DNA from: Variovorax sp. J22G73
GTDB taxonomy: Bacteria; Pseudomonadota; Gammaproteobacteria; Burkholderiales; Burkholderiaceae_C
NCBI RefSeq assembly: GCF_030317035.1
Contig: NZ_JASZYK010000004.1
Coordinates: 124,001-188,000 of the forward strand
Direction of reading: 5' to 3'
Length of the DNA: 64,000 bases
Both the position numbers and the translations under genes were made by a program. Under the pieces are notes generated by a model. That model saw only the letters and a list, made by a program, of their open reading frames with translations, ran no database searches and was not told where the DNA came from. Shown one piece after another: positions 20,827 through 60,400 of this stretch. Each line of letters starts with the position of its first letter. The first letter of the stretch is position 1.

Positions 20827-20845
20827 GATGAGAGCCATTCTTATC
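20827..20845 (+). promoter_or_regulatory. Fur box upstream of TonB receptor
   Basis: GATGAGAGCCATTCTTATC matches the two other Fur boxes in the window (shared ATGAGA-N4-TTCTTAT). It lies 18 bp upstream of a TTG start at 20863. An in-frame ATG at 20815 would place the box inside the coding region, so the box argues for the later start. Confidence 0.75.
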
Positions 20846-20862: not shown

Positions 20863-23067
20863 TTGAACCCCAGACGCCCCGACACCCTTGCCTCCGCGGC
20901 GAGCCTTTCCCTCTCCTCCCTCTCCTCCCTCTCCTCCCTCTCCTTCGCGCGCGCTACCGTGCTGGTGCTGTGGGCCGCCACGCACGGCGGCCGGGCCCTG
21001 GCGCAAGACGCGCAAGACGCTCCGGTGGCCCAGGCCAGGGACGCCAGCGCGCTGCCGACCGTGACCGTCACCGCCGACACGCCCGAAGATTCGCAGCAGC
21101 ACCTGAACGCGAAGGTGAGCAGCGGCGCGCTGGGCGCCCGCTCGCAGCTCGACACGCCCTTCTCCACCACCGTGGTGCGCAGCGACGACATCGCCGAGCG
21201 GCAGGTGTCCAAGCTGGGCGACGTGTTCGCGCTGGACGCCTCGGTGTCCGACAACAGCGGCGCCTACAACAGCTGGGCCAGCTACATCACCGTGCGCGGC
21301 CTGCCGCTGGACTGGCAGAACGGCTACCGCATCGACGGCCAGCCCTTTCTCAGCTACGCCATCACGCTGCCCTACGAGCACTTCGAGCAGATCGAGCTGC
21401 TCAAGGGTTCGTCGGGCTTCATGTACGGCTTCGGCACGCCGGGCGGCATCGTGAACTACGTGACGAAGAAGCCGACCGACACGCCGGTGCGCAGCATCGA
21501 GGTCGGCTACAAGACCGCCGGCATCTGGAGCGAGCACATCGACCTGGGCGGGCGCTTCGGCGCGGACGACCGCTTCGGCTACCGGCTGAACGCCACGCAC
21601 GAGGAAGGCAAGACCTACAACGACGGCAACGTGCGCCGCGACTCGGTATCGCTCGGGCTGGACGCCAGGCTGACCGACAAGCTCACCTGGAACTTCGATT
21701 CGCTCTACCAGAAGCGCAACGCCACCGGCCAGACACCGTCGATCTACACGGGCAGCTACACCGGCACCAGCCTGCCGGCCACCATTGCCGCGAACAACGC
21801 CGGCCTGGTGGGCCCGGGCCAGCACCTGGCCACCGACTTCACGATGTTCTCCACCGGGCTGCAGTACCAGCTTTCGCCCGACTGGACACTGGCCACCAGC
21901 TACAGCCACAGCAGCGCCGCGCGCAGCCGCAACGAAAGCATCGCCTACCTGCAGGACGCCAGCGGCAGCTACGACGACTACCGCTACGACGGCGCCGAGA
22001 GCCACCGCTTCAACCAGTGGCAGGCCATGGCCACGGGCAAGGTACGCACCGGCAGCTACGAGCACCAGCTGACGCTGGGCGCCTCGTGGCAGAAGCAGGT
22101 GAACGACTACAGCGCCAACAGCGTCTACCAGTTCATCGGCACCGGCAGCATCTTCGGGCAGAACACCAACGGCTACGAGAGCACGACCGCCTTCGCGCGC
22201 TACCGCCCCAGCGACATCACGCAGCGCGCGGTGTTCGCCAGCGACACGCTGAAGCTGTCTGAGCAGTGGTCCGTGCTGGGCGGCCTGCGCAGCACCGACT
22301 ACACGCAGAACGGCTACGACACCACCGGCGCGCAGAACGCCAGCTACCGCAAGAACGGCGTGCTCACGCCCACGCTGGCGCTGATGTTCAAGCCCGCACC
22401 CGACACCACGCTGTACACCAGCTACGTCGAGTCGCTGGAGGCGGGCAGCACGGTGAGCAACCTGTACGCCAACGACGGCGAGCTGCTCAAGCCGCTGAAG
22501 AGCCGCCAGTACGAGCTGGGCCTGAAGACCGAGCGCGACCGCTGGAGCGCCACGGCGGCGCTGTTCCGCATCGAGCGCGGCGCGGAATACGCCAACAGCG
22601 CCAACGTGCTGGTGCAGGACGGCCAGTCGATCTACCAGGGCGCGGAGCTCGGCGCCTCCACGCGGCTGGGTTCGCAGTGGCAGGTCGGCGGCAACCTGAT
22701 GCTGCTCGACAGCGCGTACCGGCGCGGCAGCAGCTACATCGGCAACCGCGTGGCAGGCGCGCCGAAGCTGGTCGCAACGGCGCAGGTGTCCTACGACGTG
22801 GCCCAGGTGCCGGGGCTGAAGCTGTCGGCCGACATGAAGTACACCGGCGCCACCATGCTCGACGCGGCCAATCGCCTGAGCGTGCCCGGCTACACGGTGG
22901 CGAACATCGGCGCGAGCTACGTCACGCGCCTGGGCGGGCACCCCACCACCTTTCGCGCGGCCATCAACAACGTGGCGAACCGGCGCTACTGGGAGTACCA
23001 GTACGACAGCTACATCAAGCCCGGCGACCCGCGCACCTTCAGCCTGAGCGCCAAGCTCGACTTCTAG
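20863..23067 (+). CDS. TonB-dependent siderophore receptor
   Basis: A 734-residue outer-membrane receptor if translation begins at TTG 20863, chosen because the Fur box at 20827-20845 lies just before it; an ATG at 20815 is also in frame. The leader contains four 9-bp repeats coding SLS units, then a hydrophobic core and a cleavage site near GRALAQ. There is no STN domain: the protein goes straight to the TonB-box/plug region (LPTVTVTADTPED ... SYITVRGLPLDWQNGYRIDG; ELLKGSSGFMYGFGTPGG), so it does not signal through a FecR. The barrel ends DPRTFSLSAKLDF. A small exported protein follows 5 bp later. Confidence 0.92.
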   Translation: MNPRRPDTLASAASLSLSSLSSLSSLSFARATVLVLWAATHGGRALAQDAQDAPVAQARDASALPTVTVTADTPEDSQQHLNAKVSSGALGARSQLDTPFSTTVVRSDDIAERQVSKLGDVFALDASVSDNSGAYNSWASYITVRGLPLDWQNGYRIDGQPFLSYAITLPYEHFEQIELLKGSSGFMYGFGTPGGIVNYVTKKPTDTPVRSIEVGYKTAGIWSEHIDLGGRFGADDRFGYRLNATHEEGKTYNDGNVRRDSVSLGLDARLTDKLTWNFDSLYQKRNATGQTPSIYTGSYTGTSLPATIAANNAGLVGPGQHLATDFTMFSTGLQYQLSPDWTLATSYSHSSAARSRNESIAYLQDASGSYDDYRYDGAESHRFNQWQAMATGKVRTGSYEHQLTLGASWQKQVNDYSANSVYQFIGTGSIFGQNTNGYESTTAFARYRPSDITQRAVFASDTLKLSEQWSVLGGLRSTDYTQNGYDTTGAQNASYRKNGVLTPTLALMFKPAPDTTLYTSYVESLEAGSTVSNLYANDGELLKPLKSRQYELGLKTERDRWSATAALFRIERGAEYANSANVLVQDGQSIYQGAELGASTRLGSQWQVGGNLMLLDSAYRRGSSYIGNRVAGAPKLVATAQVSYDVAQVPGLKLSADMKYTGATMLDAANRLSVPGYTVANIGASYVTRLGGHPTTFRAAINNVANRRYWEYQYDSYIKPGDPRTFSLSAKLDF
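20908..20943 (+). repeat. 9-bp tandem repeat in receptor signal peptide
   Basis: Four perfect copies of TCCCTCTCC, in frame, coding SLS-SLS-SLS-SLS in the leader of the TonB receptor. Copy-number change would keep the frame and only lengthen or shorten the leader. Confidence 0.9.
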
Positions 23068-23072
23068 GCGCG

Positions 23073-23582
23073 ATGAACCCGCTGTTCCACCGCGTCGCGC
23101 GGCTCGCCTGCGCGGCGCTGTGCACGTGCACGTGCACGTGCACGTGCACGTGCATGTGCATGTGCATGTGCATGTGCATGTGCATGTGCATGTGCATGTG
23201 CATGTGCATGTGCATGACTTTCGGCGCGGCGAGCGCCGCGGCGCAGGGCCGCATGGTGTCCAGCACCTGGCTGCCCGGCGGCAAGTTCGCGCTGGTCTGC
23301 GACTACGACGGCGTCGAGTACCTGACGCTGGGCGCCGACCCACCGGATGCATGCGCCGATGTGGCGCCTGCATCGCAGGCGATCGGCGCAGCGCCTCGAC
23401 CGATGCCTCAGACAGCGCCGCTGCCCGCGGTCGTGGTGTCGCGCGCGGAGGCGTTTCCGGAGTCGCACAGCTACGTCGGCGGCTTCTTCATCGACCCGCT
23501 GTCGGCGGCGTTGCGCGCCACCGGGCTGGGCCTGCTGCTGGGTGGCGAGTGGTCGCGCGGGCCGCGCCACTACAACCGCTGA
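23073..23582 (+). CDS. Small exported protein with Cys-Thr/Cys-Met repeat in its signal peptide
   Basis: A 169-residue protein starting MNPLFHRVARLACAAL. A run of 5 Cys-Thr then 11 Cys-Met pairs (residues 17-48) follows, then MTFGAASAAAQG, a plausible signal-peptidase site. The mature part (about 110 residues) has SSTWLPGGKFALVCDYDGVE and later RAEAFPESHSYVGGFFIDPL; I recognise no domain. It begins 5 bp after the TonB receptor, so it is probably co-transcribed under Fur. The repeat is made of hexanucleotides, so the reading frame survives slippage. Removing it leaves an ordinary signal peptide, which suggests that the repeat expanded inside a real gene. Confidence 0.7.
   Translation: MNPLFHRVARLACAALCTCTCTCTCTCMCMCMCMCMCMCMCMCMCMCMTFGAASAAAQGRMVSSTWLPGGKFALVCDYDGVEYLTLGADPPDACADVAPASQAIGAAPRPMPQTAPLPAVVVSRAEAFPESHSYVGGFFIDPLSAALRATGLGLLLGGEWSRGPRHYNR
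23121..23216 (+). repeat. Hexanucleotide microsatellite, 16 units
   Basis: Five TGCACG units (23121-23150) then eleven TGCATG units (23151-23216). Every step alternates pyrimidine-purine for 96 bp, the pattern that favours Z-DNA. The block change from ACG to ATG looks like a single base change spread by repeat expansion. It lies within the leader of the gene at 23073. Confidence 0.97.
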
Positions 23583-23658
23583 TGCCGCGCCATGCGGCGC
23601 CATGCCGTGTCATGCCTGCAGCCCGGCGTCCATTTTTTCTCCCGTTTTGAAAGCCACC

Positions 23659-24114
23659 ATGGCGGTCATGAAAAGCCCATGGCATCGCAACACGCCTGCG
23701 CCTTCGCAGGCACTTCACTTCCATGGCCTGCAGGCCGCGTCGCCTGCGCAGCGCCACCCCATGGGGCACGCCATGCAGGCCCGATGGAACCACGCACAGC
23801 TCACGCACGCACCCTCGCACACGCCGGTGCACACGTTGGCGCACATGGCGCCACAAAGGCTGCGCAAGGCCTCGTGGCTGCCGCGCCTGGCCGGCCTGCT
23901 GGCCTTCTGCGCACTCGCCCTCGGCGTGATGCTGGCGGGCAGCGAAACCTGCACCGCGCAGGAAGCGCCCGGCACCTTCGCAGGCAGTTACAGCCGCTCG
24001 ACGCTCGCGCTCATCACCGATTCGCGCGCCGACGCGGCCGCCCACCCGCATGGCGCCGGCTGCCGGCATCCGCGCAAGGCGAGCCGCGTCGCGCACCCGA
24101 AGCCGGCGCCCTGA
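23659..24114 (+). CDS. Hypothetical protein with one membrane segment
   Basis: A 151-residue frame. The N-terminal half is His/Ala/Pro-rich. A basic stretch RLRKASW then leads to a hydrophobic segment LPRLAGLLAFCALALGVMLA, and the C-terminal part is short (SETCTAQEAPGTFAGSYSRS...). If real, translation might instead start at ATG 23845 (MAPQRLRKASW), which would put the hydrophobic segment in a normal signal-peptide position. No family recognised. Another frame of this GC-rich stretch is also open, so the call is weak. Confidence 0.35.
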   Translation: MAVMKSPWHRNTPAPSQALHFHGLQAASPAQRHPMGHAMQARWNHAQLTHAPSHTPVHTLAHMAPQRLRKASWLPRLAGLLAFCALALGVMLAGSETCTAQEAPGTFAGSYSRSTLALITDSRADAAAHPHGAGCRHPRKASRVAHPKPAP

Positions 24115-24128
24115 GCGCCGCCGTGCAC

Positions 24129-24815
24129 ATGCTGCGGCCCGTTCCTTTTTTCAGTGCCCTGCTGGTGCAGGCCGACCCCGCGGTCGCGCTGCGCCTGCGG
24201 CACATCCTCTGCGCGCTGGCGCCGGGGCAGCAGGTGCTGCAGGCGTTCACGCGCGCGGAAGCCGAAGGCCTGCTGGCCACCTTCCTGTTCGACCTGGTGC
24301 TGGTCGACATGCAGCTGCGCCCGGCCGGCGACGGCGCCGCGCTGGTCGAGCGCATACGCGCCGCGCAGCCGCGCGCGCAGGTGGTGGCGGTGTCGGACAT
24401 GGACCACCACGCGCTGGTGGTCGCCGCGTTCAGCGCGGGCGCCGCGGGCTACCTGCTGAGCCAGGCGGACGACGCCGAGATCGCGCACGCGCTGCGTGCC
24501 CTGAACAACGGCGGCGTGGCGCTGGACGCGCGCGTGGCGCGGCACGTGCTGGGCATGTTGTCTGTGCTGCTGCAGCGCGAAGAAGGCGCATCACCGCAGC
24601 CCAAGGCGGCACCGGCCCCCTTCGACTTGCGCCCGCGCGAGCTGCAGCTGCTGCGGCTGATTGCCGACGGCCTGAGCAACCAGCAGATCGCGCATGCGCT
24701 CGCGGTGTCGGTCCACACCGTCGAGTTCCACGCGAAGAACGCCTACCGCAAGCTGGAGGTCAGCTCCCGGACCCAGGCCATCCTCGAGGCAACGCGCCAC
24801 GGCCTGCTGGGCTGA
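24129..24815 (+). CDS. LuxR/NarL-family response regulator
   Basis: A 228-residue two-domain regulator. The receiver domain (residues 8-130) has the phospho-acceptor D60 in DLVLVDMQL. The early acidic pair is reduced to QAD, and the lysine expected after the GAAGYLL turn is replaced (YLLSQADD), so phosphorylation may be altered. The C-terminal LuxR helix-turn-helix is LRPRELQLLRLIADGLSNQQ then VSVHTVEFHAKNAYRKLEV. No partner kinase is adjacent. GTG 24123, two codons upstream, is an alternative start. Confidence 0.88.
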   Translation: MLRPVPFFSALLVQADPAVALRLRHILCALAPGQQVLQAFTRAEAEGLLATFLFDLVLVDMQLRPAGDGAALVERIRAAQPRAQVVAVSDMDHHALVVAAFSAGAAGYLLSQADDAEIAHALRALNNGGVALDARVARHVLGMLSVLLQREEGASPQPKAAPAPFDLRPRELQLLRLIADGLSNQQIAHALAVSVHTVEFHAKNAYRKLEVSSRTQAILEATRHGLLG

Positions 24816-24957
24816 TGCGCGGCGGCTGCCGCGTGAGCAGCGTGAGGAAGGCCAGGTGCTTCGCGTCCCAGGCGAAGAACATCGCCAGCAGCACGGCGTC
24901 GCCCACGGCCAGCGCGATCAGGGTGCGCCAGTCCCACAGCCAGTCGAAGAAGGTCAT
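24760..24957 (-). CDS. Possible small membrane protein
   Basis: A 65-residue frame starting MTFFDWLWDWRTLIALAVGD with one clear hydrophobic segment (ALAVGDAVLLAMFFAW) and a basic tail. It overlaps the 3' end of the response regulator on the other strand by 56 bp. No ribosome-binding site is evident. The sensible amphipathic N-terminus makes it better than a random shadow, but there is no family support. Confidence 0.35.
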   Translation of the reverse strand: MTFFDWLWDWRTLIALAVGDAVLLAMFFAWDAKHLAFLTLLTRQPPRISPAGRGALPRGWPGSGS

Positions 24958-25069
24958 GGATCGAAACCAGGGAGTGATGAATGCAAGGCCTGCAGCTTGC
25001 GGCCCGCACGTTGCCCGCGGATTTCAGCGTGTTGCAGCCTCGGGGCCGCGCAGAGCAAAGGTGGCCCGC

Positions 25070-25897
25070 TCAGGCCTCTGGCGCGGGGTTGCGCGTGACA
25101 GCGGGCACGAACATGTAGCCCTCGTTGCGCACGGTGCGAATCAGGTCGGCGCGCACCTCCCCAGAGGCCAGCTTGCGGCGCAGGCGGCTGACCTGCACGT
25201 CGATGGCGCGGTCGTACGAATCGCTCTCTGCGCCCAGCGCGTACTGCACCAGCTGGTCGCGCGTGAGCACGCGGCGCGGGTGCTGCACCAGCGCGCGCAG
25301 CAGTCGGAACTCGCCGTCGGAGAGGTCCACGGGCTGGCCCTGCGGGTCGTGCAGCAGGCGGGTCTCGAGGTCGATGCACCAGCCCGCGAAGTACAGCACC
25401 GTGGCGGGGGCGTCCGCCGCGGGCTGCGAGGGCGCGACGGGCTGCGCGGCAGAACGTGCCCCGGTGCTGGCTGCATTCATCGGATTCACGGCATTGGAAT
25501 TGGCCGTGCGCCGCAGCACCGTGCGAATCCGCGCGAGCAGCTCGCGCGGGTTGCAGGGCTTGGCCAGGTAGTCTTCCGCGCCGATCTCCAGGCCCACGAT
25601 GCGGTCGATGTCGGTGCCCACCGCCGACAGCATGATCACGGGCGGGCCGCCCACGCGCTGCAGCTCGCGCAGCGCGCTCAGGCCGTCTTCGCCGGGCATC
25701 ATCACGTCGAGCACGATGAGCGCGTAGTCGGCCTGCGCGAGCCGCTCGCGCATTTCCGCGGGATGGCCGGCCGCGTCGACCTGGAAGCCGTGCTTTTCCA
25801 GGAAGGACGCCACCAGGCTGCGAATGCCGGCGTCGTCGTCGACGATGAGGATGCGGGTGGACAGGTTCACGTTGCGGCGGATCGGAAGCTGGATCAT
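25070..25897 (-). CDS. OmpR-family response regulator
   Basis: A 275-residue regulator. The receiver has the acidic pair in ILIVDDDAG, phospho-acceptor D64 in ALIVLDVMMPG, and K113 in GAEDYLAKPC. An unusually long Asn/Ala/Pro-rich linker (TANSNAVNPMNAASTGARSA...) leads to the winged helix (LSDGEFRLLRALVQHPRRVL; IDVQVSRLRRKL; IRTVRNEGYMFVPAV). Start MIQLPIRRN is chosen over a longer frame of low-complexity sequence. It diverges from the histidine kinase at 26101, its obvious partner, 203 bp away. Confidence 0.93.
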   Translation of the reverse strand: MIQLPIRRNVNLSTRILIVDDDAGIRSLVASFLEKHGFQVDAAGHPAEMRERLAQADYALIVLDVMMPGEDGLSALRELQRVGGPPVIMLSAVGTDIDRIVGLEIGAEDYLAKPCNPRELLARIRTVLRRTANSNAVNPMNAASTGARSAAQPVAPSQPAADAPATVLYFAGWCIDLETRLLHDPQGQPVDLSDGEFRLLRALVQHPRRVLTRDQLVQYALGAESDSYDRAIDVQVSRLRRKLASGEVRADLIRTVRNEGYMFVPAVTRNPAPEA

Positions 25898-26100
25898 AGG
25901 CCGGGCACCGCCGCGGGCCGAAGCCCCGCGCGCGGCACGGGCGATTCGCGCGCTGCAACGAACTGCAATGCGCTGAAATGCGGCGGCAACAGCCCGGCCG
26001 CACACTGCGGCGCTCCCACAGCCGCAAGAAAAGGAATGGCTACGCACGCGGGGCGCCGCACCGGCGTGACATCGCCCGGCGTCCGTGCCAGCATCGCCCC

Positions 26101-28380
26101 ATGAACCCCCAAGGTACCGCGCGCCGCTGGCCGGGCCCGCCCCTGGCGCTGCAGATCATGGGCCTGCTGCTCGGCGGGCTGGTGGTGGCGCAGGGCGTGA
26201 CGCTGGCGCTGACCATGCTGCTGCCGCCCGAGCCGCAGCGCCAGTGGGAGCTGGGCGACATCGCGCGCGTGCTCTCGGGCCACGCCGCCGAAGGCCGCAA
26301 CGCGAACCTGCTGCAGCGCAGCTTGCAGGCACGCGCCCCCGAACCCAAAGGCCAGGGCTGGCTCACGTCGGAGCGCTCGCGCCGCGACCTGGCGCAGCTG
26401 ATGACGCGCGACGAGGCCGACGTGCGGCTGTACTTCTACACGCCGCTGCCGTTCGCGGGGACCACCGGGCCGGTGGCGGATGCGGGGACTGCCGGCGCCA
26501 TCGCCGATGCCGGTGAAACAGCGCAGGCCCGCCCGCGCCGGATTGCCGCCACCTTCGCGGGCGGCGGCTTCGTGCGGGTGCAGGCCGGCGGCGCGCCGGC
26601 GATGCCCGCCATGCCGGGCGGGCCTGGAGGCACGGGTGGCTTCGGCGGCTTTGGTGGCGCGGGTGGAACAGGTGGCGGCTTTGGCATCGGGCGGGGTACG
26701 GGCGGCAGCATCGGCGGCTTCCAGCAACCGTCGCAGGCAGCGCAACAGCCGCAGCAGTCCCCGATGACGCAGCCTTCGCAGACTGGCGGCGTGACAGGTG
26801 CGGTCGCTGCGCCGGCGACGTCATCGGCGCCTACGACAGCCACCGGGAACGCACCCGGCAATGGAGCCGGCAACGCACCCGGCATCATGACCAGCAATGC
26901 ACCCGGCCTTGCAAGCGCGCCCACGCTGTCCGCGCCCAGCACGGGCGCGTCGCCCGGCATCACCGCCGCGCCATCCCTGCAGGCCGCACCGGCGCAGGCC
27001 GGGCCCTCCATCGGCAACGCCCCCGGCGGGCTCGGCCGCACGGGCCCCGCAACGCTCGCGCCGCCCGCGATGGGGTCGGGCCTGCCGATGGGCCCCGCAA
27101 TGCAGCCGGCACCGTCCATCCAGGCGCCGCCGCCGATCATCGACACACTGCCGCCACGCAAGGCCGCCAGCACGACGGAAGCGCCCGTGAAGCGCACGGC
27201 TCCCGCACCCGACCCACCGGCGCCGCACGCCCCCACCGCCAGCACCCCTGCAGAGCCCACGCCCCGCGCCAGCACCGAGGCCACGCGCCCCCCACGCAGC
27301 ACCGAGGCCCCGCGCACGCCACCCACCACCGACACCACCACCGAGGTCGCCCGCCCCGCCGCGCGCGGCCTCTTCGGCCTCGCGCCCGCGCCCTTCGTCG
27401 AAGGCGACTTCATCGCCGCCGTCTACACGCGCGAAGGCAGCTGGGTGGTGGTGCAGCCGGTGCCCGAGTCTTTCCCCAACGCGTGGCAGCGCCGCGTGCT
27501 GCTGTGGTTCCTGATGGCCGCGGTCATCGTGGCGCCGGCGGGCTGGCTGTTCTCGCGCCGGCTGGTGCGCCCGCTGAGCGGCTTCGCGCGCGCGGCCGAC
27601 CAGCTGGGCCGCGACCCTTCGGCCCCTGTGCTCGCGCTCGAAGGCCCCGCCGAAATAGGCCGCGCCGCGCAGGCCTTCAACCGCATGCAGGCGCGGCTGC
27701 GCAGCTTCGTGGACGACCGCACCGTGATGATCGGCGCCATCAGCCACGACCTGCGCACGCCCCTCACGCGGCTGCGCTTTCGCATCGAGGACGTGCCCGA
27801 CGACGTGCGCGCCGGCATGCTGGACGACGTGGAAGAAATGGAGCGGATGATCGGCTCGGTGCTCAGCTTCATCCGCGACGCCTCGGTGGTCAGCGCGCGC
27901 GAGCGCATGGACCTGGCGAGCCTGGTGGAAGACGTGGTCGAGCAGGCCGTGTTCGTCGGCAAGGACGTGCTGCTGCAGCGCACCGAGCACGCCCAGGTAG
28001 AGGTCGACGCCATGGGCATGCGCCGCGTGCTCGACAACCTGGTGGAGAACGCCGTCAAGTACGGCCACCAGGCACGCGTGCGCCTGTTCACCGACGGCGC
28101 CGACGCCGTGGTCGAGATCAGCGACCGCGGCCCGGGGCTGCCCGCCGACGAGCTGGAGCGCGTGTTCAAGCCCTTCTACCGCTCCCCGCAGGCCCGCGCC
28201 TCGCGCGCCTCGGGCAGCGGGCTCGGGCTGGCGGTGTGCCGCTCGATTGCGCGCGCACACGGCGGCGACGTGGTGCTCAGGTCGGGCCCGCACGGGCTGC
28301 TGGCGCAGGTGCGGGTGCCGCTGGCGCTGCAGCCGCAGCGAGGCGAAAGCCGGCTGCCCGAGCGCGGCACGCCCGCCTGA
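26101..28380 (+). CDS. Sensor histidine kinase with very large low-complexity periplasmic insert
   Basis: A 759-residue membrane kinase. Membrane segments are at about residues 15-41 and 463-483, followed by HAMP (RRLVRPLSGFARAADQLGRD). The phospho-acceptor is H549 in GAISHDLRTPLTRLRFRIE, the N-box is NLVENAVKYG (near 650), and the G-boxes are SDRGPGLP and GSGLGLAVCRS. Between the membrane segments lie about 420 residues instead of the usual 100-150. About 270 of these (near 155-425) are Gly-, then Ala/Pro/Thr-rich, with GGFGGFGGAGGTGGGFG and repeated NAPG. The frame is intact and flanking sensor sequence is present on both sides. The partner is the divergent regulator at 25070. Confidence 0.92.
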   Translation: MNPQGTARRWPGPPLALQIMGLLLGGLVVAQGVTLALTMLLPPEPQRQWELGDIARVLSGHAAEGRNANLLQRSLQARAPEPKGQGWLTSERSRRDLAQLMTRDEADVRLYFYTPLPFAGTTGPVADAGTAGAIADAGETAQARPRRIAATFAGGGFVRVQAGGAPAMPAMPGGPGGTGGFGGFGGAGGTGGGFGIGRGTGGSIGGFQQPSQAAQQPQQSPMTQPSQTGGVTGAVAAPATSSAPTTATGNAPGNGAGNAPGIMTSNAPGLASAPTLSAPSTGASPGITAAPSLQAAPAQAGPSIGNAPGGLGRTGPATLAPPAMGSGLPMGPAMQPAPSIQAPPPIIDTLPPRKAASTTEAPVKRTAPAPDPPAPHAPTASTPAEPTPRASTEATRPPRSTEAPRTPPTTDTTTEVARPAARGLFGLAPAPFVEGDFIAAVYTREGSWVVVQPVPESFPNAWQRRVLLWFLMAAVIVAPAGWLFSRRLVRPLSGFARAADQLGRDPSAPVLALEGPAEIGRAAQAFNRMQARLRSFVDDRTVMIGAISHDLRTPLTRLRFRIEDVPDDVRAGMLDDVEEMERMIGSVLSFIRDASVVSARERMDLASLVEDVVEQAVFVGKDVLLQRTEHAQVEVDAMGMRRVLDNLVENAVKYGHQARVRLFTDGADAVVEISDRGPGLPADELERVFKPFYRSPQARASRASGSGLGLAVCRSIARAHGGDVVLRSGPHGLLAQVRVPLALQPQRGESRLPERGTPA

Positions 28381-28413
28381 ACGCGCTGGCGCCTGAACAG
28401 TTCAGCGCTTCAA

Positions 28414-28437
28414 CACTTCAGCACTTCAGCACTTCAG
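28414..28437. repeat. 8-bp tandem repeat between convergent genes
   Basis: Three perfect copies of CACTTCAG, flanked by degenerate copies on both sides (CAGTTCAG, CGCTTCAA, CACCTCAA). They fill the 60-bp gap between the kinase stop and the convergent pilQ stop. No clear T-run is present, so this is not a standard terminator. Confidence 0.85.
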
Positions 28438-28441
28438 CACC

Positions 28442-30553
28442 TCAACGCATCGCGTTGCGGTCCGTGATCATCTTCGGGCTGATGAAGATCATCATCTCCG
28501 TCTTGTTGTTCACCCGGCTGCGCGTGCGAAACAGCGCGCCCACCACCGGCATTTCCCCCAGCACCGGCACGCGCGACTCCGACGTGGTGTCCGTCAGCTC
28601 GAACACGCCGCCGATGACCACGGTGCCGCCGTTCTCCACCAGCACCTCGGTCTGGATGTGCTTGGTGTTGATGGCGTAGCCCGCCGTGGTCGACTGGCCC
28701 ACCGTGTCCTTGTTGACCTCCAGCGACAGGATGATGTTGCCCTCGGGCGTGATCTGCGGCGTGACCTCGAGCTTCAGGTTCGCCTTGCGAAAGGAGATGG
28801 ACGTGGCGCCGCTCGATGTCGCCACCTGGTAGGGCAGCTCGGTGCCCTGCTCGATCAGCGCCTTGGTCTGGTCGGCCGTGACCACGCGCGGGCTGGACAC
28901 CACCTTGCCCTTGCCGTCGGCCTCCAGCGCGGAGATCTCGAGGTTGAGCATCTTCGTGAGGCTGGAGTTGAACAGCGACAGCGCAAAGGTGCCCACCGCG
29001 TCGCCCGTGGTGCTGGTCGCGGGCAGGTTGACGAAGCTGGTGGTCGAAGAGACGCTGGTGGTGCTGGAGCTCGACGTGGGCGTGGCGCCCACCGACGAAT
29101 TCGCGTTGACCGCGCCGCCGCCCAGCTTGGCGCCCAGGCTCTTGCTGAAGGTGTCCGTGGCCTCCACGAAGCGCGCCTCGATCAGCACCTGGCGCACCGG
29201 CACGTCGAGCTTCTGCAGCAGCTCGCCCACCTGCGCGAGCCGCGAGGGAATGTCGGTGACGAAGAGCTGGTTGGTGCGCGCCTCGGCCAGCACGCTGCCG
29301 CGCGCGCTGAGCAGGCGCGTGGCCGTGCCGCCACTGGCGCCACCCCCACCCCCACCGCCTCCGCCGGCGCTGGTGCCGCTGCCCGTGAGCCCCTGCGCCA
29401 CCGTCGCCGCCTTCGCGTAGTTGAGCTGGAACGACTGCGTGCGCAACTGCTCCAGCCCCTGCAGCGTGGCCTGCGCCTCGAACTTGATCTTCTCCTTGGC
29501 GTTGAGTTCGTCTTCGGGCGCAATGCGCAACACGCTGCCGTTCTTGCGCATGCCCAGGTTCTTCGCCTCCAGGATGATGTCCAGCGCCTGGTCCCAGGGC
29601 ACGTCTTTCAGCCGCAGCGTGAGCGCGCCGCTGACGGTGTCGGAGGTCACGATGTTGAAGTTGGTGAAGTCGGCAATCACCTGCAGCAGCGAGCGGACCT
29701 CGATGTTCTGGAAATTGAGCGACAGCTTCTCGCCGTTGTAGCCGGCGCCCTGCGTGAGCTTGCCGGGGTTGTCCTTGCGCGGGCGCACCTCCACTACGAA
29801 CTGGCTGTTGCTCTGGTAGGCGCTGTGCTCCCATTCGCCGCGCGGCTCGATCACCATGCGCACGCGGTCGCCGGCCTGCTGCAGCGCCACCGTCTGCACC
29901 GGCGTGCCGAAGTCGGCCACGTCGAGCCGGCGGTTCAGGCCCTCGGGCAGCGAAGAGCGGGTGAACTCCACCACCAGCCCCTTGCCCTGCTGGCGAATGT
30001 CCACGCCGACCTGGTCGTTGGGCAGCGTGACGATCACGCGGCCGGCACCGTCGCTGCCCAGCCGAAAGTCGACATCGCGCAGCGGCAGCATGTCGCGGTT
30101 GCGGTTCTCCGCGAACTCGAAGGGCATGGCCGCGCGCAGCGCCGCGCCCGCGGCAGGCTGCAGCGACACCAGCAGCGACTTGCCTTGCAGCTCGGTGCGG
30201 TACGCCGCCGCCTGCTTCAGGTTGAGCACGAGGCGTGTGCGATCGCCAGCCTGCACCACATTCACCGAGCGCAGGTTGCCCTGGCTGATGTCGATGGGCG
30301 CGCGGCCCAGGTTGCTGTCCATGCCGGCGAAGTCGAGCGCGATGCGCGCGGGCGACTGCACGGCGAAGCCGGCCGGCGCACCGGCCAGCGGCTCTGAAAA
30401 ATCGATGCGCAGCACCTCGGTGCCGGCTTGCACGGAACCCGTGACGGATTCGATGCGGTTCTGCGCGCAGGCGGCGGCCATCGGCACCGCGCAGGCAAGC
30501 AGGAAGACGGCCGCGCGCAACCAGCGCGGGACCGCGAATGTCTGTGTGTTCAT
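28442..30553 (-). CDS. pilQ: Type IV pilus secretin PilQ
   Basis: A 703-residue outer-membrane secretin through which type IV pili are extruded. A signal peptide ends near ACAQ (residue 31). Two AMIN domains (about 36-120 and 160-250: DRTRLVLNLKQAAAYRTELQ; VGVDIRQQGKGLVVEFTRS) bind peptidoglycan. An STN/N0 domain follows (LSLNFQNIEVRSLLQVIADF), then N1 and the secretin core (GAFRLE-type: VPVLGEMPVVGALFRTRSRV, NKTEMMIFISPKMI). A nine-glycine tract lies in the N1-secretin linker. No pilM, pilN, pilO or pilP is adjacent, whereas these normally precede pilQ. It is therefore a solitary or second copy. Confidence 0.92.
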   Translation of the reverse strand: MNTQTFAVPRWLRAAVFLLACAVPMAAACAQNRIESVTGSVQAGTEVLRIDFSEPLAGAPAGFAVQSPARIALDFAGMDSNLGRAPIDISQGNLRSVNVVQAGDRTRLVLNLKQAAAYRTELQGKSLLVSLQPAAGAALRAAMPFEFAENRNRDMLPLRDVDFRLGSDGAGRVIVTLPNDQVGVDIRQQGKGLVVEFTRSSLPEGLNRRLDVADFGTPVQTVALQQAGDRVRMVIEPRGEWEHSAYQSNSQFVVEVRPRKDNPGKLTQGAGYNGEKLSLNFQNIEVRSLLQVIADFTNFNIVTSDTVSGALTLRLKDVPWDQALDIILEAKNLGMRKNGSVLRIAPEDELNAKEKIKFEAQATLQGLEQLRTQSFQLNYAKAATVAQGLTGSGTSAGGGGGGGGGASGGTATRLLSARGSVLAEARTNQLFVTDIPSRLAQVGELLQKLDVPVRQVLIEARFVEATDTFSKSLGAKLGGGAVNANSSVGATPTSSSSTTSVSSTTSFVNLPATSTTGDAVGTFALSLFNSSLTKMLNLEISALEADGKGKVVSSPRVVTADQTKALIEQGTELPYQVATSSGATSISFRKANLKLEVTPQITPEGNIILSLEVNKDTVGQSTTAGYAINTKHIQTEVLVENGGTVVIGGVFELTDTTSESRVPVLGEMPVVGALFRTRSRVNNKTEMMIFISPKMITDRNAMR

Positions 30554-30725
30554 TTCACCTGCCTTGGAAACTGCGGCCTCATCTCCTCGCTGCTTCGAGC
30601 TCCCTCATGAGCGCAGCGCCCGCCCCGCCGCCGCTGTGCACCCGCGCGTGCAGTGCACGTGCGATGCAGGCGCCAGGGCCGCATGCGGCGGCGCGGCCCC
30701 TCAGCCGCGCCGCCGCAAGGCGTCG

Positions 30726-31883
30726 TCAGAACGCGTGGCGAATGCCGAAGTCGTAGCCGGTCGACGAACGCGGCACGCCGCTGAAGCCCACGCCCGCGCT
30801 GCCGTAGCCGGTGGTGCTGGCCGAGATCAGGCTGCCGGTGTAGTTGGCGTCGTTGCGGTTGTTCACGCGCGCCACCGTGGCGTACAGCGCGGTGCGCTTC
30901 GACAGGTTGTGCACGTAGCCGATGGCCAGCTTCTGGCCGCGCGGGTCTTCGCCCGTGATGCCGGCCGCGCCTTCGTTGTAGCGAACCACCGAGTACGACG
31001 CGCGGATCAGGCCCGCGCCCACCGGCACGGTCGCGCCGATGAGGTAGCCGTTGTAGCTGTCGTGCGTGTTGCCCAGCGCGGTGTCGAACTTGTTCTGCAC
31101 GTTCGACAGTTCGCCGAACAGCTTCACAGGGCCGAAGTCGTACGACGCGCCGAGGTTGATGGTCTGCACCTTGCGGCCCAGCGTGGTGGTGTCCACGACC
31201 GTGCTCTGGCCCACGCCCAGCGCCACGTCCAGCGGGCCGTTGGCATAGCCGAAGCGGCCACCGACGTAGCGGCCGGCGCTGCTGCTCGTGGCGGCAGTGG
31301 TCGCCGTCGCGTCGGTGCTGGTGTTCTCGGCGAAGCTGTATTGCAGCTGGCCGTAGAAGCCGCCCAGGTTCGGCGGCAGGAAGTAGCCGACCGAGTTGCT
31401 GGCGCGGACGTAGTTCGTGTTGTTCAGCGTGCTGTTGCCGCTCACGGTGCTGATCAGGTTGGTGCCCGAGCCGTTGGTGCCGAACGGATCGAACACGGTG
31501 TCGTTCCAGAAGGTGGGCGTGTAGTCGCGGCCCAGGCGCAGTTCGCCGAAGCCACCCGACAGGCTCACGGTGGAGCGGCGTGCGAAGGTGCTGATGCCGG
31601 TGGCGCCGTCGTCGTTGGTGATGGGCGCTTCGAGCCAGAAGCTCGCTGCCAGGCCACCGCCGAGGTCTTCCGTGCCACGGAAGCCGAGGCGGCTGGAGTT
31701 GTAGGCGGAGTTGCCCAGGCTGGTCTTGCTTTGCTTGACCGACGCACCCGTGACCGGGTCGCGCGCGGTGGCCGACTGATAGGTCACGCCGGCGTCGACG
31801 ACACCGAACAGCGTGACGGACGATTGGGCAGAAGCCAGGCCACAGACGGCCAGGGCAGCGAATGCCGTGAGGGTTTTCTTCAT
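30726..31883 (-). CDS. Gram-negative general porin
   Basis: A 385-residue outer-membrane porin of the 16-strand type common in Burkholderiales. Signal peptide MKKTLTAFAALAVCGLASAQ; the mature start SSVTLFGVVDAGVTY is diagnostic. Further porin motifs are SRLGFRGTEDLGGGLAASFW and GGFGELRLGRDYTP. It ends with Phe (YDFGIRHAF), as required for Bam-assisted insertion. The gene stands alone; a 231-bp gap separates it from the divergent gene at 32115. Confidence 0.97.
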   Translation of the reverse strand: MKKTLTAFAALAVCGLASAQSSVTLFGVVDAGVTYQSATARDPVTGASVKQSKTSLGNSAYNSSRLGFRGTEDLGGGLAASFWLEAPITNDDGATGISTFARRSTVSLSGGFGELRLGRDYTPTFWNDTVFDPFGTNGSGTNLISTVSGNSTLNNTNYVRASNSVGYFLPPNLGGFYGQLQYSFAENTSTDATATTAATSSSAGRYVGGRFGYANGPLDVALGVGQSTVVDTTTLGRKVQTINLGASYDFGPVKLFGELSNVQNKFDTALGNTHDSYNGYLIGATVPVGAGLIRASYSVVRYNEGAAGITGEDPRGQKLAIGYVHNLSKRTALYATVARVNNRNDANYTGSLISASTTGYGSAGVGFSGVPRSSTGYDFGIRHAF

Positions 31884-32114
31884 TCAGGTTTCTCCAGTTT
31901 CAGGTCTGATGCGGCCGCTCGGTATCGACCGGCTGTACGCATGGTTTCGCCCAAATCTGGAGGAATTTGGTAGATCCGTTTTCTGTGCCATCGAGTGTTG
32001 CGCGGACACATCAAGGTGATGCGCGCCGCAAAGACCTCGCGCGTGGCGCGGCCCTTCAAATTTCTCCCAATTCGCCTGAAAAGATCCACGCATGACGAAG
32101 CTGGAAACACACAG

Positions 32115-33248
32115 GTGAAGCGCGCGAGAACCTTCATGGCCGCGGCGTTCGGTGCACTGGCCATCGCATGCGCGAGCACCAGCATCGCGATGGTTCATTC
32201 GACCTCGGTGCTCGCGGCGGGCATGTTCGCGGAGCACGGCGCGCGCGCTGCAACACGTGCAACACGTGCAACACGCAATCAGGCACAGGCGCAGGCACGA
32301 ACGCAACCGTGGTGGGCCGGCTTCGAGGACGCATCGATGGGCCGGCTGATGGCCGCCGCGCGCGGCGCCGACGAACCGGGCGTGGCCGCCGCGTACATCG
32401 CGCTCAAGGTGAAGACGCTGGAACTCGTGTACCTGGAGAACACGCGCGCGGCCGTCACGAGGCAGGCCGCGCTCGTTGGCAGCGGCACGCCACGGCACGA
32501 CGACTTCGAAAAACAACTCGCGCAGCGGCAGCTCGCCGCGGACGACAACATCGGCAAGCTGAAGGCGCAACGCACGAGCTATCTTGCCTACCTGGCGGCG
32601 CGCTGCGGCATGCCGCAAGCCGCGCTCGAAGCCTTGCTGGCCGACGCGCTGCAAGACAGGTCGCTGCCACGCTTCGCGGCCGAGGTGCCGAGCGAACTGC
32701 CGATGGCCGTGCTGGCCAACCGCAACGACGTGCAGCTGGCCGCCGCGCTGTACGGCGCGGACACCGATGCGCTGCCCGGCGGCGTGATCGACACAAGCGG
32801 CGAAGCGCCCGACATCGATGCGCCCGGCATCGAGGCTTCCGGCCAGCCCCTGTACGCCCACGCGGTGATGCAGGCGCGCGACCAGGTCGCCGGCGCCTTG
32901 CAGCACCTGCAGATGCAGAGCGACATCGCGAACACCGCCTACGCGCGCGTGGTCGATGCACGCGCCGACTTCGAAGCATCGAAGCAGCGCCGCGACCGCG
33001 GCGACATTTCCGAAGTGCAGCTGATGGAAGACTTCCAGGGCCTGCTGCTCGACCTGCACGTGCTGGCCGCGGCCAACGGCGAGCTGGCGATGGCGTGGGT
33101 GCTCTTCATGGGCAACGTGGGTGGCGCGAGCGGCATGGGCAACGACACCGCCATCGACGCCATGGCCACCCCGCAGGCAACGCAGGCCACACAGGCAAGG
33201 GAATTGCCGTTTCTGCACAAAGTCTCCCGAAAGTTGCGCAATCCTTGA
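32115..33248 (+). CDS. Outer-membrane efflux-channel (TolC/NodT)-like protein, reduced
   Basis: A 377-residue exported protein from GTG 32115; ATG 32136 (MAAAFGALAIACAS) is an alternative. The mature N-terminus PWWAGFEDASMGRLMAAARG matches the start of NodT/OprM-type channel proteins. AAAYIALKVKTLELVYLENT and LPMAVLANRNDVQLAAALYG match their helical parts, and LHVLAAANGELAMAWVLFMG their C-terminal helix. It is about 80-100 residues shorter than the family. The strands that form the outer-membrane barrel are not evident. No RND or membrane-fusion partner is nearby. It may be a periplasmic relic of the family. A 9-bp repeat codes ATRATRATR near residue 46. Confidence 0.7.
   Translation: MKRARTFMAAAFGALAIACASTSIAMVHSTSVLAAGMFAEHGARAATRATRATRNQAQAQARTQPWWAGFEDASMGRLMAAARGADEPGVAAAYIALKVKTLELVYLENTRAAVTRQAALVGSGTPRHDDFEKQLAQRQLAADDNIGKLKAQRTSYLAYLAARCGMPQAALEALLADALQDRSLPRFAAEVPSELPMAVLANRNDVQLAAALYGADTDALPGGVIDTSGEAPDIDAPGIEASGQPLYAHAVMQARDQVAGALQHLQMQSDIANTAYARVVDARADFEASKQRRDRGDISEVQLMEDFQGLLLDLHVLAAANGELAMAWVLFMGNVGGASGMGNDTAIDAMATPQATQATQARELPFLHKVSRKLRNP
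32250..32276 (+). repeat. 9-bp tandem repeat in channel-like gene
   Basis: Three copies of GCAACACGT (last one ending C), in frame, coding ATR-ATR-ATR directly after the signal region of the gene at 32115. Confidence 0.9.
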
Positions 33249-33266
33249 AGCTCGAAGGAGCACTCC

Positions 33267-34109
33267 ATGACCACTGCCTTGCACAAAGCCCCCGCCCGCA
33301 CCGTGCTCACGTTGCCCGGCCACTCGCGCGCCCCAACGCACACGCACACGCACACGCACACGCACACGCACACGCTCGCGCACGCACCGACGCAGCACCC
33401 GCGCCATTCGCTCGCCATCGACGGCGAGCAAGACGGCACCACCGCCACCGCGCTGGGCGTGCAGCAGCTGGTGAACGCCTTCAAGCCCGCCTTCGGCCGG
33501 CTGCACGTGCTGCAGGACCTGGTCATTCCCATGTACGAAGGCAGCGCCGTGCCCACGGCCCGTTTCGACGTGGCGCTGGTGTGCGAGGCCGGCGTGTACC
33601 TGTTCGAGGTGAAGGGCTGGCGCAACGCCGTGGTGTACCGCAAGACCTCCGCGCACACGGTGCCGCGCTGGTTCCTGCGCCAGCGCGACCATTCGCTGGC
33701 GCGCGAGGTGAAGGACCCCGCCTGGCAGTGCGGCCGCAAGACCACGCACCTGCGCAGCCTGCTGCCGCCCGACCTGCGCGTGCAGTACTTCGTGCTGCTG
33801 CCTTTCGACGGCGTCGAGCTCGAGGGCGTGATGCCCACCGTGGTGATCACGCCGCAAGACCTGCCCTACATCGCGCGCGTGGCGCGCAACAACGGACGCA
33901 ACGAGCAGGGCTATCCGCTGCTGGACGGCGCGGCCATCGACCGCACCCTGCAGCTGCTGGCCGACGTGCAGGGCGAGCTCACGGTGGACGACCACCTGCG
34001 CAACAGCCGCGAGAAGCCGGGTCGCCCGCACGCCTCACTCCCCGCACACACTGCCCACGCTGCCCGCCCCGCACATCCCGCACACCCCGGCGTGCTGAAG
34101 CTGCAATGA
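33267..34109 (+). CDS. NERD-domain protein with Thr-His repeat
   Basis: A 280-residue protein. Residues 24-37 are a Thr-His repeat from a microsatellite. The central NERD (nuclease-related) domain covers about residues 65-190. Its core is FDVALVCEAGVYLFEVKGWR, where the Asp and the E-V-K correspond to the Mg-binding residues of the restriction-enzyme-like fold, followed by the helical part. The tail is His/Ala/Pro-rich (AHTAHAARPAHPAHPG). No signal peptide. Starts 18 bp after the channel-like gene and ends 4 bp before the response regulator, so an operon is likely. The function of NERD proteins is mostly unknown; nucleic-acid processing is the usual guess. Confidence 0.8.
   Translation: MTTALHKAPARTVLTLPGHSRAPTHTHTHTHTHTHTLAHAPTQHPRHSLAIDGEQDGTTATALGVQQLVNAFKPAFGRLHVLQDLVIPMYEGSAVPTARFDVALVCEAGVYLFEVKGWRNAVVYRKTSAHTVPRWFLRQRDHSLAREVKDPAWQCGRKTTHLRSLLPPDLRVQYFVLLPFDGVELEGVMPTVVITPQDLPYIARVARNNGRNEQGYPLLDGAAIDRTLQLLADVQGELTVDDHLRNSREKPGRPHASLPAHTAHAARPAHPAHPGVLKLQ
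33337..33372 (+). repeat. Hexanucleotide microsatellite in NERD gene
   Basis: Six copies of CGCACA, alternating pyrimidine-purine throughout, coding (Thr-His)6 near the N-terminus of the NERD-domain protein. Like the repeat at 23121, its unit is a multiple of three. Confidence 0.95.
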
Positions 34110-57459: not shown

Positions 57460-60400
57460 ATGAACAAGTCCTACAAAACCATCTGGAACGAATCGCTCGG
57501 CGCCTGGGTTGCCGCCTCTGAAACGACCAAGGGCCGCGGCAAGCGCAGCAAGCTCGGAAATTCGGCCACCGGTTCTTTGCCAGCGTCCTTCGAGCGAACG
57601 CGCGGCCATGGCGATCGACTCGCCGGCGCGATCTCCCTGGCCGTTCTTGGCATGGCCGGCGCATTGCCTTCTGCATTCGCTCAGTTCACTCCCGTGGGCA
57701 GCGGCGGCGTTGCCACCGGCGCGGCAAGCATCGCCATCGGCGGTGGCACGGGCGCCACGGCCCGCGGCACTATTGCAGCGGGTGCATCAGCCACCGCCGC
57801 CGATGCCATCGCCATCGGCGAACAATCGAACGCCGCGTCCACGGCCATTTCCGCTATTGCCATCGGCCGCGGGGCGACAGTCAGCGACAAGTTCGGCATC
57901 GCCCAGGGCGACGGGGCAACGGCCGCGTTCAGCAGCGTGGCCATCGGCATGACGGCCCTGGCCACGAACAATTTCGCCTCGGCCCTGGGCTGGACGGCCC
58001 AGGCGCTCGGCAACGCTTCCATCGCATTCGGCCCCGGCGCCATCGCTGGGGTCAACGCGAAAAACGCAGTGGCCATCGGCATGAGCGCCCAGGCGTTCGC
58101 CGGCTCTTCCGTTGCGCTCGGCCCCACCGCGGTCACGGGCGTCAATGCGTCGAACGGAATTGCCATCGGCTCATCGGCATCGTCCACCGGCGACCGGAGC
58201 GCGGCCATCGGCTCCGGCGCCCAGGCAGCGGGCGAGTTCGCCTTGGCCGTGGGCCGCACGACGCTGGCGGCAGGGGCCGGGGCGACGGCGCTTGGCAGCA
58301 ACACCTTGAGCGGTGCGTCCGCCGCCGGCGCCGATGCGATTGCCATCGGCGGCCAGTCCAACGTCGCGTCCACGGCCACCTCCGGCATCGCGCTCGGCCG
58401 GGGAGCCACCACCAGCGGCGCCTTCGGCATCGCCCAGGGCGACGGGGCCACGGCTTCCGCGTCGAATGCCATCGCTGTGGGCACGGGTGCCCAGGCATCC
58501 GGGGCCGGGGCCATTGCGCTGGGCAACAAGGCGATTGCGCTGTACCCCGACAGCGTGGCGCTGGGCTCGTCGAGCAAGACGTCGGGCACGCTGACGGCGT
58601 TGCAGTCGGGCGTGGCGCACACGCCGTTCAAGGGCGCGGTCATTGCGGGCTCGACGCCGGTCGGCGAGGTGTCGGTGGGGTCGGCCGGCAACGAGCGGCG
58701 CATCACCAACGTGGCCGCCGGCAGTGCCGCAACGGACGCGGTCAACGTCAGCCAACTGCAGGCGGCGTCCGCGGGCGGCGTGCAGTACGACAGGAACACG
58801 GACGGCACGCTGAACAAGGCCGGCGTGACGTTGGGCGGTGCAGGCGTCACCACGCCGGTGCGGCTGGGCAACGTGGCCGCGGGCAATGTGGCCGCGGGTT
58901 CGACCGATGCGGTCAACGGCGGGCAGCTCGATACGGTGCGCGCGGCCGCCAGCAAAGGCTGGAACCTGGGCGCGAACGGGGCGGCCGCGCTGAACATCGC
59001 GCCGGGCAGTGCGGTGGACTTCATCAACGGCAGCAATACCACCGCCTCGCGCACCGGCAACCAGATCAAGGTCGATATGTCGAAGGCGCCGACCTTCGAC
59101 TCCGTGACTGCAAGACCGGGCGCGCCCGGCAGCGGCAGCGCCACGCTGGGCGGCAACGGCCTGACGACCATCGGCGCGGACGGCAGGGCCGGACCCAGCG
59201 TTCTTGCCACCGGCATCGACGCGGCGAGCAAGCAGATCGCCAACGTGGGCGCGGCCACAAGGGACGACGACGCGATCAACAAGAGGCAGTTGGACGACGC
59301 GACCAAGTTCGTCAAGGTGAGATCCGGCGGCACGGAGCTGGCCGCCGTTGCGGCAACGCTGGGAGACGTCGCCATCGGCGTGCAGGCGAACGCGACCAGC
59401 GGCAGCAACCTCGACCATGCCGGCGTGGCCATCGGCTATGGCGCGACGATGAGGGGCAACCGGGGCGTCGCCGTGGGCATGCAGTCGTCGGCCACGGGCG
59501 ACGATGCGGTCGCTTACGGCTACGAGGCCAATGCCAGCGCAAAGGGCGCGTTGGCGCTCGGCAGCCGCGCCAATGCCACGCAGGCCGGCGCGGTCGCCTT
59601 GGGTCAGGGCAGCGTCGCGGACCGCGCCAACACGGTGTCGGTCGGCAGCGCCGGTGCGGAGCGCCAGATCGCCAACGTCGCTGCCGGCACGGCGTTGACC
59701 GACGCGATCAACAAGTCGCAGCTGGACACTGCGACGAAGTTCGTCAAGGCGCGATCCGGCGGCTCGGAAGTGGGGGCTGTGACGGGGTCCCCGGGAGACA
59801 TCGCCATCGGCGTGCAGTCCAACGCGACCAGCGGCAGCGGCGGTGACCATGCCGGCGTGGCGATCGGCTATGGCGCCACGATGAAAGGCAACCGGGGCGT
59901 GGCCGTGGGCATGCAGGCGTCGGCCACGGCCGATGACACGGTCGCCTATGGCTACGGCGCCAACGCCAGTGCAGCGGGTGCTTCGGCGCTGGGCAGCCGC
60001 GCCAGCGCCACGCAGGAAGGCGCCGTCGCGCTGGGCCAGGGCAGCATCGCGGACCGCGCCGACACGGTGTCGGTCGGCAGCGCCGACGCCGAGCGCCAGA
60101 TCGTCAACGTGGCCGCCGGCACGGCGCCCACCGATGCCGTCAACCTCAGCCAGCTGGACGCGGTGAACGCGACGGCGAGCAAGGGATGGAACCTGAGTGC
60201 GAACGGCGTGAATCCGATGAACATCGCGCCTGGCGGCGGAGTCGATTTCGTCGACGGCAACAACACCGCCGTCTCGCGCATCGGCAATCAGATCAGGGTG
60301 GATGTGTCGAAGACGCCGACCTTCGATGCGGTGACTGCAACCACGGGCACGCCGGGCACGGCCGGCTTCAGCAGCACCACGCTGGGCGCCAACGGCCTGA

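Follow-up and report, generated by a model that had tools for sequence, protein, structure and literature searches.

The siderophore receptor locus and the small exported-protein gene

The window, the whole 64,000-nt stretch of Variovorax sp. J22G73 DNA that was analysed and to which all positions refer unless another genome is named, contains a TonB-dependent siderophore receptor gene at 20863..23067 (+), which has a TTG start and encodes 734 aa (TIGR01783, PF00593, PF07715). The TIGR01783 score of 316.4 bits is above the curated cut-off of 223.5, and the receptor start TTGAA[CT]CC is common to the five loci compared. A candidate Fur-box-like 19-mer, GATGAGAGCCATTCTTATC, was detected upstream of the receptor at 20827..20845 (+); it has at most one change in the five loci and matches the E. 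coli consensus at only 11 of 19 positions. The description of the receptor as Fur-controlled in the sequence-only reading would depend on this candidate site. The receptor operon probably serves iron uptake. A plasmid search with the receptor region returned distant receptors only (8 records, all with 60-80% identity).

The gene for a small exported protein of 169 aa (23073..23582, +) starts 5 bp past the receptor stop (TAG-GCGCG-ATG), as an earlier sequence-only reading of this DNA had stated, and has orthologs in four other genomes of the same genus, one of them frameshifted. Searches with the product gave no match to a Pfam or NCBIfam family (to E 0.1), to a PDB entry (to E 1) or to a PADLOC family, and AlphaFold modelling of the small protein (two sequences) gave a mean pLDDT of 38.2. 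Alignment with the AHA/ANA motifs of the orthologs suggests a signal peptide of 55 aa (23073..23237, +) with cleavage after ASA (A55). The mature part (23238..23579, +) aligns as two conserved blocks, the N block VSSTWLPGGK and the C block YVGGFF.DPL.AALRATGLGLLL, with a variable linker between them. The next gene (23668..24114, +; alternative in-frame ATG at 23659) encodes a small conserved protein of 148 aa (MKSPWH...) with no Pfam family up to E 1; a similar MKSPWH or MNSPWH protein is the downstream neighbour in all four relatives.

The hexanucleotide array in the leader

We detected an uninterrupted array, (TGCACG)5(TGCATG)11, at 23121..23216 (+), which is in frame and encodes (CT)5(CM)11 in the hydrophobic core of the leader. 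The direct read and TRF (23119-23216, period 6, 16.3 copies, 97% matches) confirmed the five TGCACG and eleven TGCATG in-frame units that had been noticed earlier. The translated leader region is MNPLFHRVARLACAAL-(CT)5-(CM)11-TFGAASA-AAQGR, with the predicted cleavage between TFGAASA and AAQGR, in agreement with the earlier description of a core turned into Cys-Thr and Cys-Met pairs; the count of 16 extra cysteines is correct for the array, and C13 brings the leader to 17.

All six frames are free of stops across the array, so an open frame there is no evidence by itself. The frame of 23073-23582 is fixed by the presence of the gene at the same position in four relatives of the same genus and, judged from this comparison, the frame through the array is the genuine, conserved gene frame. 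An untranslated frame, named beforehand as an observation that would overturn the idea of a functional repeat, is thus opposed by the orthologs. Each of the two blocks is pure, and a single C-to-T difference separates their units. This purity suggests a young array that spread by slippage.

By inspection and by alignment with ordinary leaders, the leader has a basic n-region, a hydrophobic core and A-x-A ahead of the cleavage site, and the ordinary basic start and cleavage site described in the sequence-only reading therefore appear sound. The core of a Sec signal peptide is about 7-15 residues long; the core in the window, about 38 residues from L11 to M48, exceeds this range for leaders cleaved by signal peptidase I. 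The best 19-residue leader window reaches 2.2 on the Kyte-Doolittle scale versus 1.6-1.7 in the four relatives, and the unweighted sum on the biological insertion scale is -2.2 versus +2.45 to +3.0. When the number of CM units is raised from 0 to 10, the value of the best 19-residue leader window on the unweighted biological hydrophobicity scale falls from +1.99 to -2.2. By its composition, (CM)11 could span a membrane and (CT)n could not. Compared with the dozen or so residues estimated by eye for an ordinary core, the core has lengthened to about 38, and (CM)11 is by composition as hydrophobic as a membrane helix; the leader of this allele may therefore undergo slow cleavage or hold part of the protein in the membrane as an anchor. 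A yeast study that bears on the anchoring prediction varied n-length and hydrophobicity and not core length.

Orthologs and the leaders of relatives

Among 101 genomes of the genus that were searched, five contain the mature part: the own genome, G044, G049 and G089 with intact genes, and G035 as two pieces in two frames. The mature parts of the three intact relatives are 61-62% identical to that of the window. The G035 ortholog (L009 1423-1834) is frameshifted in the linker; its upstream receptor is intact. The distance between the receptor stop and the small gene is 9 bp in all four relatives and 5 bp in the window; in each of the five loci a start codon (ATG in four, GTG in G089) is found 5-9 bp past the stop.

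The relatives have ordinary leaders, of 26 aa with the core LCIGMAC in G049, 26 aa with LWIAAAC in G044, and 30 aa and 26 aa with LCLCLSC in G089 and G035, respectively. The window leader, if cleaved at the A-x-A that matches the orthologs, has 55 aa, about twice the ordinary 26-30 aa. The array is absent from the leaders of all four relatives, and we conclude that the hydrophobic core was lengthened in frame specifically in this lineage. A repeat count in related strains had been proposed in the sequence-only reading; the count is 0 units in these four relatives, so leader length has changed in evolution. The DNA of the LCLCLSC leader (TTGTGCCTGTGCCT) contains two TGTGC steps and is therefore a plausible seed of the array.

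Two further matches were rejected as orthologs. The G046 match (E 6.8e-4, 38% identity) lies in a locus with other genes and no receptor in the 3.2 kb covered. A family-wide search for the small protein gave matches in 7 of 399 genomes; the best one outside the genus, in G276 (E 8.2e-7), adjoins a gene that by eye is BamA-like, in place of a TonB receptor, and the remaining five are weak (E 5e-4 to 1e-3). The named-genome search gave no match with the single protein as query, and with the alignment as query only Variovorax sp. OK212.

Tandem arrays in this genome and in other genomes

To put the array in context, perfect arrays of at least 24 bp with units of 2-12 bp were counted in 1.886 Mb of this genome (22%), taken from 29 of its 35 contigs (all of C30 and all or part of 28 others). 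The census detected 31 arrays, in which the array of the leader appears in two parts, 23120-23154 and 23150-23216. Joined (97 bp), it is the longest of the 31 and has the highest copy number; its pure GTGCAT part alone, 67 bp, is slightly under an 11-bp-unit array of 70 bp. Three copies of 400 kb of the same contig, generated with an order-5 Markov model, contained arrays of at most 18 bp. The unit is a multiple of 3 in 22 of the 31 arrays (binomial P 2.4e-5 versus an assumed 1/3); for such arrays outside the 12.5-kb cluster described below, the open frames were listed only. As regards a possible mismatch-repair cause of the arrays, MutS is present in this genome as an 895-aa open frame. A long Asp-Ala repeat frame (DADADA) with hexamer arrays was observed at G000 C30 415856-416086, about 269 kb from the array of the window, and the window itself has two 432-bp repeats, 84% alike, at 59268-60126.

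Y-R hexamer arrays (TGCATG, TGCGTG, TGCGCG) of at least 4 units are present in 17 of the 101 genus genomes; a control with the pattern reversed, some of whose hits are these same arrays, gave matches in 10 of 101. Among 17 arrays from the 16 other genomes, read by eye with six further arrays of G093 left out, none lies in a recognisable signal-peptide core. Their unit type is the same as in the window, and by eye they are mostly outside recognisable genes. The longest of these other-genome arrays, (CACGCA)10 in G048 (C5 near 549766-549825, L017), is directly 5' of a leader-like core (RWLLPLLMAAGGSAHA) that belongs to a probable binding protein.

In an even sample of 399 genomes of the family, 6 genomes, the own one included, have at least 6 TGCAYG units, and the control pattern had no match among the matches listed. 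The other five genomes have 6-7 units, by eye never in a leader core, and the 16 units of the window are the most observed in the genomes surveyed. In another genus, a small protein rich in His and Cys has an array encoding HMHMHM shortly after its leader-like stretch (L159, G390 C161 near 6124).

A cluster of five arrays within 12.5 kb

Five of the 31 sampled arrays, with units of 9, 6, 8, 9 and 6 bp, are located in one 12.5-kb part of the window (20908-33383), a higher density than elsewhere in the sampled 1.886 Mb. At least five arrays per such span were obtained in 0.1% of 20,000 random placement trials; the span was picked post hoc, and the trials took the maximum over all spans. The first array, TCCCTCTCC x4.1 (9-bp unit; 20908..20944, +; TRF), is in the receptor leader (SLSSLSSLSSLS) and is absent from all four relatives, whose leaders differ there. 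The second is the array of the small gene. The third, with an 8-bp unit, is intergenic, with its perfect part at 28414-28440, between genes ending at 28380 and 28442. The fourth (9-bp unit) encodes ATRATRATR, residues 85-93 of the ORF 31995-33248; in G089 this segment has a dissimilar sequence and in G035 it is reduced in length, whilst G044 gave no more than a short match and G049 none. The fifth, a 6-bp ACGCAC array at 33336-33383, is located in the variable N-terminal region of a NERD-domain protein (33267-34109), where it encodes THTHTH. That protein has a full-length match in 12 other genomes, and the five of these that were read have a shorter, unrelated stretch in place of THTHTH.

The four coding arrays of the cluster, with units of 9, 6, 9 and 6 bp, thus all occupy segments in which the relatives are not alike. 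Frame-safe units in variable coding segments, together with a frame-breaking unit between genes, are what slippage filtered by frame and length tolerance predicts; this pattern requires no special function of the leader. The clustering itself is not explained by neutrality alone. In the 36-kb regions around the orthologs no such array was found in G044, G049 and G035, and three arrays were found in G089. One of the three in G089, an array with a 9-bp unit (L154 6386-6415, PVVPVVPVV), falls within the variable linker of the small gene itself and is a second, independent array in this gene family.

A predicted RNA hairpin of the array

The array transcript is predicted to fold into a 46-bp hairpin (23119..23216, +; RNA MFE), a feature absent from the sequence-only reading. 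This folding follows from the units themselves, since GTGCAC is palindromic and GUGCAU is self-complementary by way of G-U pairs. The calculated MFE of the array alone is -86.3 kcal/mol with 46 pairs, and the stability grows with each added unit. With its flanks, the array has a z of -7.55 as RNA versus 200 dinucleotide shuffles and of -2.70 as DNA. The first 210 nt of the gene fold with -153 kcal/mol, and the first 120 nt of the relatives with -44 to -58, values for unequal lengths.

Discussion

The repeat and its reading frame, the lack of an array in four relatives and the conservation of the gene context were observed directly, and we consider that they are probably best explained by a tolerated, nearly neutral slipped-strand expansion in the Sec leader of a small exported protein. 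We infer that the array grew recently via slipped-strand replication from a Cys-rich core with TGTGC-containing DNA, of the kind found in the LCLCLSC leaders of two relatives. It would have been retained mainly because a signal peptide tolerates changes of core length and 6-bp steps keep the frame. Given this tolerance and frame safety, copy number should drift, each step altering the leader by two residues, and give a length polymorphism that is close to neutral, and export would continue despite the array. Copy number is known from one genome per species.

The strongest competitor, although an unlikely one, is that the function of the gene is being lost in this lineage, with the array as one symptom, an over-long leader on a protein for which efficient export is no longer required. 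The mature-part dN/dS values between the window and the relatives (0.61, 0.48 and 0.43 by Nei-Gojobori) versus those among the intact relatives (0.17, 0.36 and 0.31) are consistent with this; the values are rough, since they come from about 115 codons, are pairwise and are assigned to no branch. At two positions the window has Cys in place of an aromatic residue that all three intact relatives share (Y to C and W to C), the G035 ortholog is frameshifted, and the search detected the gene in only 5 of the 101 genus genomes. However, the window gene has neither a stop nor a frameshift, its start codon and cleavage motif are intact and the C block YVGGFFIDPLSAALRATGLGLLL is fully retained. All dN/dS values are below 1, and the window pairs of the intact receptor are also rather high (0.27-0.34 versus 0.14-0.33).

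The sequence-only reading proposed that slippage, changing the leader by two residues per step, could tune or switch export. In the form considered here, the array would be a contingency locus in which export, cleavage or anchoring is adjusted in two-residue steps and the resulting variation is selected. We consider this improbable. What stood is the frame-keeping 6-bp unit and the location in the hydrophobic core; the length of the unit rules out opa-like on/off switching, so that only graded tuning or a transition between cleaved and anchored forms is possible. The largest copy number of the sample, the change of the best 19-residue window with CM units and the position in a receptor operon that probably serves iron uptake fit such a locus, and signal-peptide repeats have published precedents (PMC3960869, PMC2034530). 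But the array is missing from the four relatives, a like array is present in the NERD-domain protein outside any leader, and those of other genomes are mostly outside recognisable genes (by eye). The in-frame arrays of the neighbourhood occupy segments that are free to vary between relatives. Moreover, the protein has no known function in surface variation, its gene is frameshifted in one relative, and the window pairs are the highest in dN/dS.

There is a slight chance that the array acts as a frame-safe rheostat or threshold switch, in which each TGCATG unit would add one Cys-Met pair and, past about 7-9 pairs, the leader would turn into a membrane anchor. A clonal population would then contain periplasmic and anchored forms of an accessory protein of the siderophore receptor, with the stability of the mRNA hairpin changing alongside. 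Such a switch is not needed to account for the array.

An action at the RNA level, with the hairpin about 45 nt past the start codon slowing ribosomes or recruiting RNase III and thereby setting the expression of this gene and of the downstream genes relative to the receptor, and with copy number setting the stability, seems more doubtful still as the explanation of the array. The folding energy of the start region is well under that of the shuffles, the array alone gains stability with each unit, and the 5' ends of the relatives fold far more weakly over their unequal lengths, all of which would suit this action; however, self-complementary units in any array fold likewise, ribosomes open hairpins within translated ORFs, and we found no sign of selection for the hairpin. 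That so exceptionally stable a hairpin is wholly without effect is nevertheless unlikely, a point against the near-neutral reading.

An artefact, either a mis-assembled copy number in a draft of 35 contigs or initiation at one of the 11 in-frame ATG codons that the TGCATG units contain, is the least credible of the explanations, since mis-assembly hardly yields a compound 5+11 structure and 96 bp fits within an ordinary sequencing read, the start codon keeps its short distance to the receptor stop in all five loci, and by eye the array has no purine-rich ribosome-binding stretch inside.

If the array is a tolerated expansion, it is still informative: even when neutral, it marks the parts of exported proteins that are free in length. 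With a long in-frame array, leader length could be studied apart from any effect of frame, and the present one is a natural allele with which to ask how long and hydrophobic a cleavable leader can get before it anchors. There is also a warning for annotation, as leaders of at least 50 residues may be microsatellite products.

Comparison with known signal-peptide repeats

In the Neisseria opa genes, CTCTT repeats lie in the leader-coding region, and slipped-strand mispairing alters their copy number and switches expression by frameshift (PMC3960869, PMC3899988, PMC4534519). The locus described here resembles opa in having a microsatellite within the 5' leader-coding region of an envelope protein. 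It differs in the unit, which is 5 bp in opa, with frameshift on/off switching; in the window the unit is 6 bp, a multiple of 3, and length alone changes.

The signal peptide of primate PCSK9 has an in-frame leucine repeat, (CTG)n, which varies from L6 to L9 between species and is polymorphic (L9/L10) in people (PMC2034530). As in PCSK9, a signal-peptide repeat in frame, with a unit that is a multiple of 3, differs in copy number between species, here 16 units versus none with no intermediates observed. PCSK9 is an animal gene with a 3-bp unit, one residue per step and changes of 1-3 residues, whereas the array of the window is bacterial and encodes 32 residues of Cys-Thr and Cys-Met. Human APOB has a signal-peptide insertion/deletion of Leu-Ala-Leu, with a 24-aa deletion allele and reported lipid associations (PMC4201729). 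It shares with our case a hydrophobic leader changed in length in frame, as a polymorphism in APOB, and differs in being human and in having two alleles rather than an array.

Our literature search, with subscription journals mostly outside its scope and sources available in part, found no bacterial in-frame or hexanucleotide repeat in a signal peptide. Taken together, the case of the window is a bacterial, in-frame and much longer version of the known signal-peptide repeats.
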